The position numbers and the translations under genes are program-made. Positions 46,819 to 49,535 of a stretch of 64,000 nt of DNA are shown here, one piece after another. Numbering within the stretch: the stretch's first letter is position 1; the number at the start of each line of letters is the position of its first letter. Source of the DNA: Hypomyces perniciosus (lineage: Eukaryota; Ascomycota; Sordariomycetes; Hypocreales; Hypocreaceae); assembly GCA_008477525.1 (NCBI GenBank), contig SPDT01000004.1:1364001-1428000 (forward strand), written 5' to 3'. The notes beneath the pieces were generated by a model. It was not told the origin of the DNA and ran no database searches. It was given only the letters and a program-made list of their open reading frames with translations.

Positions 46819-49535
46819 TCACCCCCATTTTCGATCCAATAGCTGCCCAGACATACGCAGAACCTTTTCCCCCTGGAGAAGCTGTGCATATCTTGAAATG
46901 CGTTCCTGTGTCGACATGGTCAGAAACTTGGCCAACCCGGACGCACCAGCTTGCTCAAATAGCATTTTGGATAGGACCTTGGCAGCAACGACATTCATAC
47001 CAGCTTGACGCAAGAAGACTTCCCACGTCGTCTCCTCTGCTGACAAAAGCGGCTTCAATCCTAAGGATTGGTGTGAATAACGGCACATGAGACACAAAAT
47101 CCACTTGGCCAGTGTCCCTTCTGCCCCCTGAACAAAGAAAACGTTCACACCAGCCTCGAGTGCGACAGCAAAGCGGACAAAGTCGGCATAGGCTGCTACG
47201 TCAGAAGGAGTCTGAGTTCTGGTGAACTCACCGGCGGGGTTGGACTCGGACACAAGGATAGTGAGAGTTTCATATTTTTGGCTGACTTTTTGAACACGTT
47301 CCCGGAGCTGTGTCTGGGTCTTTGAGCCGGGGAGAGGCCGTTGCTTAACTTTCAGGAGATTGGTGACAATCACTCCTGCGGCGGGTGATAGAGAGATGTC
47401 GGCTTCGAAGGTAAGTGGTGAGGCTGTTTCCTTGGGCTGGGCTGTGCTTGGCGGCCATGCCATGGTGTTGTGCCGCGAATAATCGATGTCGATCAGGTTT
47501 TCTGGAGGCCACAAGATCTCCAGGTGTCGAAGAATGGACCTCCCAAGACCCAGAGAAACAATGAAAGCTCCCTTCTCTGAAGCAATCTCCATTTCAGGTC
47601 CTGTAGCTGAAACCATCTCCTGATCATTTTCATGTGACCGAGCCTGTCCTTTCGGTACTTGAGGCGTGTTGTCCTGCAATCGGGGTGCCAAGATGCTTGT
47701 GGCCACGGTTTGAGGGATCGGAGTAGATGAGATATCGAGCCGGGGCTTTTTAGCCGCTCTCAATTTCATGAAAACTGATAATAGCTTGCTTGTGGCACTT
47801 GTATCGCTGGGTTTTGGTAAGACACTCACGGAGTCATTAATTGTCTTTCTGCGAAGTGGGCGAAGGAGACTGGGCGATTCCTGCTTTTGAAAGTAAGTCG
47901 ATTCGACTTCTGATGTAGACCCTTGGTGGTTAGGGACCCCATGATGCTTTTCTGTCGTTGTAAGGGATGGCGCTTGGTTTATGCAGTCATCGGTCAGGGG
48001 CTCCAGACCCTCGATTTCGTCGTCTTGAGGAAGTTGAAGGATCGCCATGCTCGCTGTGACAGAAACAAAGCTTGCACTGCTCAAAGTAGGGGTCCTCTCC
48101 AAGGCAAGGTAACTTCGAGACGATTGACTGAGCAGTTGCAGTTCCTCGTTTATAAGTACCCGACCGCTTCTCGGTGGAGCAGGTGTCCATTTCAGGGTAC
48201 TGTCTGATCGGGCGTCTCGAGGCATAACAGGAATATTAAATGTGCCCTGTAAAGTATCCTTGAGCTAAGCAAAGTGTGCTTTTGCACTTGAGCAGTCATT
48301 GCTCTATTCTGGCTGTGGAATCTTGAAATTCAATATAGGGACATGAACTCGTGAGATTGAGTCGGTCGGGTTTAGGCGCTCTTGTTCCGTTAGTTGATCT
48401 GCGTAAGAGCGACGACTGTTGAGCAAGGCCATAAATGTGTCTTCAAAATATGCTCCTTCATCGTGCTGCGGGCCAAAGATATCCTCATCGTTGGCGATAC
48501 AAGGGAGACCGACATTTGCCAGAATATTTTCATCACATGCCGTATCGGAACTTGTAAATACAACCGGAACTTCTACCATAATGTCTTCAAGGGACGCGCC
48601 GAGACCTTTCGTGCCCTCTGGGAGTCCCTGAGAAGGAGACGAGGTGGGAAGAGTTGACGGCATGACCGGCTCTGAATCGAGACATCCCTCTTGCAGGAGC
48701 TGAACTTCCCTATTTGTAGGGCTACTAGGTTCTGATGTAAGATCAATGATAGTGGAATCATCATTTGGAACAAATGGTAAAGGGTCATCGGAAACAGGAG
48801 ATAGAGGCGGGGTGATTGGCTCGGGGTAGTAGTAGTAAGGCGACTGAGCCAAGTCAGCTGGAGACGAGTATCTGGACCACACATTTCTCTTACAGCTTCA
48901 GGTTTGGCATAGTTTGCCAGGAACTGCCTATTCTCGGCCGTCAATGGGGGTCTATAAGCGTCCTGCTCAAATATTGAGGCATCGTCTGACACGGTAATCG
49001 TTTCACGTTCCAGTTCTCTCTGTAGCAGAGGTTGGAGCCTGTCGGTTTTTGGTGGGAAGGGCAAGCCCTCATCTTTGTCAACTCTAACGGAACTTAGAGG
49101 GAGCCATTGGTTGAACAGATTGGAATATTGCTTTGCAGAAATCTGGCTCAGGTACTCTTGAACATCGATCTCAGGCCGGGAGCCCAAGTCCAACGACTCC
49201 ACGGGGACAAGGAGATCTTTGAGAGAAGGTCTAGAAATTAGTGAAGGTGTTTGCAATGATGAATCCTCCAGAAGCCTTTGCAGCGCGACCTCCGTAATTT
49301 GGCCAAAGTCGAAGGCATCATCAATAATGCGGGCTTGCGGGAGTGCAATAGCTCGCAACCCAGACTGAGCTACCAGTCTGTCCTTCTCTGTCTTCTGTGC
49401 AGTACTTTGAAGATAGGGAATATGTGATTGGAAACAGAATGGTGCTCTTCGGTGATTTTTGAGGCAATTCTCTCGACGTCCGTACTCGTCGGCTGTTTCT
49501 GTCCTGTCTATCAGTTGTTCCCTCGTGGTCGTCAT
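46819..49535 (-). CDS. Putative ZIP2/SHOC1-like XPF-related meiotic protein with two in-frame TAG codons
   Basis: Two exons: 49535-48894 and 48843-46819, a 50 bp intron (GTAAGA...GCTCAG), 889 codons to the final stop. The frame is open except for TAG codons at 48306-48304 (codon 394) and 48267-48265 (codon 407). N-terminal landmarks are DKDEGLPFPP and YPEPITPPLSPVSDDP, which I recall from a fungal family labelled DUF7102. The C-terminal part is XPF-like: an inactive nuclease-like core (AAGVIVTNLLKVKQRPLPG; ETLTILVSES), then a helix-hairpin-helix pair (FLRQAGMNVVAAKVLSKML; SGLAKFLTMSTQERIS; LLQGEKVLRMSG), with no ERKxxxD site. ZIP2/SHOC1 proteins share this plan and promote meiotic crossovers. 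The TAGs may be edited to TGG, spliced out by a weak 102 bp intron (48348-48247), or mark a pseudogene. Family call is moderate. Confidence 0.62.

Follow-up and report, generated by a model that had tools for sequence, protein, structure and literature searches.

Gene Structure at the Locus

The stretch of DNA analysed here (the window) comprises 64,000 nucleotides (nt) of the fungus Hypomyces perniciosus, probably a parasite of mushrooms, positions 1,364,001 to 1,428,000 of contig SPDT01000004.1 in assembly GCA_008477525.1. Its minus strand holds a probable ZIP2/SHOC1-type meiotic crossover gene with two in-frame TAG codons, which are candidates for correction to tryptophan (Trp) by adenosine-to-inosine (A-to-I) editing of the mRNA. 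The features of this gene, in window positions, are as follows (bp, base pairs; Phe, phenylalanine).

48894..49535, minus strand: first exon of the ZIP2-like gene, starting at ATG 49535 (gene model)
48844..48893, minus strand: putative intron 1, 50 nt, GTAAGA...CTGAC...CAG (splice and branch motifs by eye)
46819..48843, minus strand: exon 2, open apart from the two TAGs, TGA at its end (translation)
48304..48306, minus strand: TAG 1, codon 394 (Trp in 79/84 homologues with a residue at the column)
48265..48267, minus strand: TAG 2, codon 407 (Trp in 39/84 and Phe in 33/84 homologues with a residue at the column)
48258..48274, minus strand: predicted hairpin CUUUG-CUUAGCU-CAAGG, 5-bp stem and 7-nt loop, the A of TAG 2 in mid-loop (RNA folding)
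47068..47565, minus strand: Pfam DUF7102, XPF-like part of the C-terminal domain (E 1.4e-47; fold comparison)
46849..47040, minus strand: Pfam SAM_6, helical HhH-like part of the C-terminal domain (E 8.7e-20; fold comparison)

An earlier note on this DNA had described the minus-strand frame from 48843 to 46819 as continuous except for TAG at 48306-48304 and 48267-48265, and the same two stops were found on retranslation. Its numbering of the stops as codons 394 and 407 was reproduced by the full model, which runs from the ATG at 49535 to 46819 with one 50-nt intron, has 889 codons before the final stop and contains no further stop in the modelled frame. The 5' part of the gene lies in a different frame from exon 2. 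The two are joined through the putative intron at 48893-48844, which starts with GTAAGA, ends with CTGACTTGGCTCAG and is needed for joining the frames. The N-terminus encoded by exon 1 is similar, by eye, to that of the Cladobotryum mycophilum homologue P0002. In the exon-2 frame, TGG to TAG accounts for 8 of the 248 possible single-base nonsense changes, 8 of the 59 transitions and 8 of the 44 CpA-type changes. The chance that two random nonsense changes are both TGG to TAG is about 0.0009 when all changes are counted, 0.016 for transitions and 0.03 for CpA-type changes, and the TAG pair exceeds chance expectation.

Homologues at the Two Stop Codons

A protein homologue search using the query with X at both stops returned 89 proteins, which were then aligned with the query. 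At the TAG 1 column these proteins carry W (79), Y (3), H (1) and S (1), with a gap in 5. The TAG 2 column holds W (39), F (33), R (5), A (2) and L, Y, V, S and H (1 each), with a gap in 5. Residues are present at both columns in 84 of the 89 homologues and Trp at both in 37. The latter include the nearest homologue, that of C. mycophilum (52% identity), 3/3 Tolypocladium rows and 10/12 named Fusarium rows. Among the rows with Phe at the TAG 2 column, 19 of 33 are named Trichoderma. The motif VPxLDFxIPxPEW...HFxWL is kept across the stretch holding the stops. Trp is the commonest residue at each column and occupies both in the closest homologue, so that an origin from TGG is the simplest for the two TAGs and the surrounding stretch, as judged from the alignment, is exon. 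The alignment proposed in the earlier note as a check for Trp at codons 394 and 407 gave a clear result at the former (79/84) and a divided one at the latter. Five homologue models lack both columns, namely Trichoderma P0050, P0062, P0068 and P0083 and Claviceps P0085. The P0050 model omits the stretch and the P0062 and P0068 models begin downstream of it; these three loci may carry stops at the same stretch.

Protein Identity

Structure comparison of the model has shown a predicted C-terminal fold like that of yeast Zip2, with XPF-like and helix-hairpin-helix (HhH) parts. The N-terminal part is long and its model confidence is mostly low. The likeness to yeast Zip2 and mammalian SHOC1 (MZIP2) consists in a C-terminal XPF-HhH fold after a long N-terminal part; the fungal protein differs in that a profile search against PDB sequences matched no chain. 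The XPF nuclease signature is ERKx3D, and since no ERK string is present in the exon-2 translation (by eye), this motif appears to be lost. The claim that the C-terminus looks like the XPF fold and HhH of ZIP2/SHOC1 stood as far as the predicted fold is concerned and did not stand as a distinction from FANCM, which scores equally. FANCM carries an N-terminal helicase domain, and no helicase family occurred among Pfam matches up to E 1 in the three gene pieces scanned. The gene product is likely a ZIP2/SHOC1-type crossover protein with a putative role in meiosis. We know of no premature stops in yeast Zip2 or mammalian SHOC1 genes.

Editing Machinery and Other Editing-Type Genes

Ame1 is a DUF726 protein that has been reported as the cofactor enabling Tad2-Tad3 to edit mRNA. 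Its function requires M500 V501 and D589, while E546 and R548 are important for Tad3 binding and the catalytic-triad residues S531 and H629 are not needed (PMC11087585). Searches of the whole assembly (44,002,379 bases, 23 contigs) revealed three DUF726 genes (6 exon matches). In the gene at C23:755629-756700, + strand, the residues MV, E, R, D and H are spaced from the catalytic Ser exactly as in Ame1; in the other two, MV is replaced by AS and SL. The genome encodes an Ame1 homologue that retains the residues on which mRNA editing depends.

Reports also exist on PUK1, which has UAGUAG in kinase subdomain IX in F. graminearum, UGGUAG in F. verticillioides and UAGUGG in N. crassa, all edited in perithecia. 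About 90% of perithecial PUK1 transcripts were edited at both sites, and automated annotation of the F. graminearum gene spliced out the UAGs (PMC4817773). A kinase scan of the H. perniciosus genome gave 136 matches (128/216 first-look candidates scored), of which 18 had a TAG and 16 of these 18 were read. Among the 16, one kinase, of the PUK1 type, has a TAG judged by eye to replace an exonic Trp. It reads YYDGRCDW[TAG]SIGIILYEC with the TAG at C23:2069560-2069562, + strand, that is TGG-TAG as in F. verticillioides; its identity as PUK1 rests on the Trp-Trp site of subdomain IX and not on a tree.

RID is one of 70 F. graminearum premature-stop genes corrected by editing (PMC4817773). The RID gene of H. 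perniciosus, so identified by the names of its homologues, e.g., rid1 of Drechmeria, contains a TAG at C3:1351008-1351006, minus strand. A homologue search with X at this TAG found 354 proteins, 120 of which were listed and aligned. Of the 120, 108 have a residue at the TAG column, and it is W in 107 of them, the one exception being C. The 12 gapped rows are exactly the 12 named Trichoderma models, and the gap borders vary between species. False introns around editing sites have been described in gene models (PMC4817773, PMC11169179). The Trichoderma gap pattern fits such false introns and suggests a genus-wide editing site.

Sequence and RNA Context of the Sites

The editing-site preference tested was U at -1 and A or G at +1 and +3. 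The U at -1 and the G at +1 are inherent in TAG, and +3 is G at TAG 1 and U at TAG 2. For the main RNA folding the flanks were 30 nt long, following the published analysis, and seven flank lengths were tried. The TAG 2 hairpin appears with flanks of 10, 12, 30 and 40 nt and not with 15, 20 or 25 nt. A 5-bp stem with a 7-nt loop is the size of the tRNA anticodon arm. With 30-nt flanks, the TAG sites of the PUK1-type and RID genes fall in predicted loops. In F. graminearum, 62.4% of editing sites have the edited A in a hairpin loop (PMC4817773). The support that the predicted hairpins give to editing is weak, above all for site 1.

Proposed Mechanism and Alternative Explanations

We regard it as quite likely that the locus is a ZIP2/SHOC1-type crossover gene in which both UAGs are corrected to UGG by Tad2-Tad3-Ame1 A-to-I editing during sexual development. 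The ZIP2-like gene is a probable new premature-stop-correction (PSC) gene, with editing read from the genome. This interpretation is supported, though not proved, by the Trp homologue columns, the lack of a plausible intron, the Zip2-like fold, the Ame1 homologue and the TAGs in the PUK1-type and RID genes; from these we infer editing, its timing and the meiotic role. The stop-to-Trp editing candidate of the earlier note is largely upheld by the same evidence. During perithecium development, both UAGs would become UIG and be read as Trp. Transcripts edited at both sites would yield the full 889 residues, positions 394 and 407 being Trp, and on unedited transcripts translation would end after 393 residues with the whole C-terminal domain lost. 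The full-length yield would be the product of the two editing rates, if the sites are edited independently.

Several observations weigh against editing at this locus. The codon 407 column is Phe rather than Trp in 33/84 homologues, and no relative with TAG at either codon was found. A search for relatives truncated at TAG 1, using a 296-residue 5' query, gave 0 among 1123 candidates at low sensitivity, homologue P0083 of the right length being missed. The +3 position of TAG 2 is U, where A or G is favoured. The A of TAG 1 is unpaired but outside a hairpin loop at 30-nt flanks. The candidate A lies in a loop at 2/7 flank lengths for TAG 1 and 4/7 for TAG 2, and 229 of 800 sampled window TAGs are also in loops. 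The SPO22 gene, a known editing target of F. graminearum, shows no in-frame TAG in the H. perniciosus stretch seen; it is interrupted there by TGA and TAA, which were taken as intronic. RhoGAP showed 0 TAG in 11 matches. To these may be added the tie of FANCM with Zip2 in fold score and a TA/AT of 0.81 in the 221 bp around the stops, a short stretch, versus a 2-kb mean of 0.62.

The gene could also have become a pseudogene recently, or the sequenced strain could carry a null allele, the crossover factor having been lost, perhaps via asexual reproduction; we consider this unlikely. The gene does contain nonsense codons, whose repair is predicted from the genome, and both sites are Trp in the closest homologue, that of Cladobotryum. 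The assembly has a MAT1-2-like HMG gene (a split HMG box at C5:1818474-1818730, which we take to be of the MAT1-2-1 type). An alpha-box search of the genome gave no match, but it was run without a positive control and does not establish absence. H. perniciosus HP10 has been reported to carry MAT1-2 only (PMC6627653). Against loss of the gene, both changes are TGG to TAG at Trp columns, with the chance of about 0.0009 to 0.03 given above, and the model has no other stop or frame break. Had the gene acquired two nonsense changes by drift, frameshifts would be expected as well, and that the model needs none argues against drift. At conserved columns (at least 90% agreement of the other rows), the query protein deviates at 3/83 and C. 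mycophilum at 5/86, against a median of 3.2% over 84 rows (six rows, P0083 and P0086-P0090, left out). After removal of 14 partial or divergent rows, a FastTree tree was built from the remaining 76. Measured from the ancestor shared by the two, the query branch is 0.38 long and that of C. mycophilum 0.54, with a support for this pairing of only 0.28, and the root-to-tip length of the query is 1.65 vs. a median of 2.02. By these measures the predicted protein is not evolving unusually fast, and an old pseudogene was ruled out by the conserved columns and the normal branch length. The pattern of TAG at Trp is also present in the PUK1-type and RID genes of the same genome, while the truly decayed-looking kinase-like gene L050 mixes TGA, TAA and TAG. 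SPO11- and SPO22-family matches are also present in the genome.

A spliced intron removing both codons had been named in the earlier note as an outcome that would overturn editing. It is very improbable: although both stops are enclosed by 20 in-frame GT-AG pairs, 45-300 nt long, none is plausible, with 0/20 donors matching GTAAGT at 5/6 positions, or at 4 with a branch site, and the homologues with residues at both columns and the conserved motif argue for exon. Equally hard to credit is an origin of the TAGs through repeat-induced point mutation (RIP) or other duplication-triggered mutation. TGG to TAG is the CpA to TpA change of RIP on the opposite strand, a RID-type gene is present and TA/AT is raised around the sites, but the ZIP2-like gene is single-copy, with one match in the genome at the DNA and protein level, its gene-wide TA/AT is 0.617 vs. 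0.62 +/- 0.08 in 2-kb windows, and there are just two such changes in an otherwise intact frame. Sequencing or assembly error can be given almost no weight. There is a single assembly, but it looks like the 190x PacBio genome of H. perniciosus HP10 (PMC6627653), and it is improbable that an identical G to A error struck two Trp codons of one gene and that this class recurred in two further editing-type genes. Translational readthrough of UAG without editing is likewise a negligible prospect: UAG can be decoded at a low rate, but the next codons, AGC and CTC, are not known promoting contexts and two stops in series multiply the loss.

Comparison with Known Systems and Significance

Like PUK1 of F. 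graminearum, F. verticillioides and N. crassa, the ZIP2-like gene would be a sexual-stage gene with UAGs at Trp codons, two of them as in F. graminearum (PMC4817773). PUK1 differs in being a kinase with tandem UAGUAG and editing seen in RNA, whereas the UAGs of the ZIP2-like gene are 13 codons apart and known from DNA alone. F. graminearum SPO22 (ZIP4, FGRRES_01563), AMA1 and RID are meiosis or sexual-stage genes whose premature UAG is corrected by editing (PMC4817773, PMC11156358), and the ZIP2-like gene would resemble them in this respect. It differs from SPO22 in which partner is affected, here the ZIP2-like gene. In CHE1 of Fusarium, editing turns a conserved in-frame TAG, which lies in a predicted hairpin loop, into a Trp codon, and its gene models are truncated or contain a false intron (PMC11169179). 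The TAG at a Trp codon is common to both genes; in contrast, CHE1 encodes a zinc-finger transcription factor and is edited in hyphae (PMC11169179).

If the editing interpretation is true, a core crossover factor joins the genes dependent on stop-codon editing, and the editing system is extended to Hypocreaceae, the family of Hypomyces, by genomic evidence (ZIP2-like gene, PUK1-type gene, RID and Ame1 homologue). The locus also shows where gene models likely break at such sites. A literature search at the level of titles and abstract openings found, among the papers listed, no report of A-to-I editing in Trichoderma or the Hypocreaceae, and none linking ZIP2 with A-to-I editing was found at listing level. 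A ZIP2 entry may exist among the 69 further F. graminearum premature-stop genes, although the Fusarium sporotrichioides homologue P0074 carries Trp at codons 394 and 407. We tentatively raise the possibility, itself rather doubtful, that editing-dependent gating has repeatedly targeted the ZMM crossover pathway of Sordariomycetes, through ZIP4/SPO22 in Fusarium and its direct partner ZIP2 here. Full-length ZIP2 would then be made only when both stops are edited, and Tad2-Tad3-Ame1 would activate class I crossovers jointly with RIP, the latter through RID. In yeast, Zip4/Spo22 binds the N-terminal part of Zip2 (PMC6155065); under such gating, the unedited 393-residue N-terminal fragment may still bind Zip4.

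Other Interrupted Genes

Codon usage was scanned across the window in search of further interrupted genes. The scan was uninformative in that real gene frames were not singled out; its 25 top-scoring stops lie in frames of both strands and include neither TAG of the ZIP2-like gene. Elsewhere in the genome, the kinase-like gene L050 (C5:1079696-1080445, minus strand) has one TGA at the second Trp place of a DWW-type site and looks like a true pseudogene from its mixture of stops. Two near-alike kinase fragments with stops, at C12:169845-170078 and C3:5239267-5239494, both on the + strand, are probably copies of one duplicated, decaying gene. The Ras family gave 47 matches, several with TAG. Two of these matches, of equal open-frame length (207 aa), lie at C5:1220919-1221419, + strand, and one has 2 TAGs. 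These TAGs may represent another editing site or merely an intron; the editing genes of Fusarium include a Rho GTPase.
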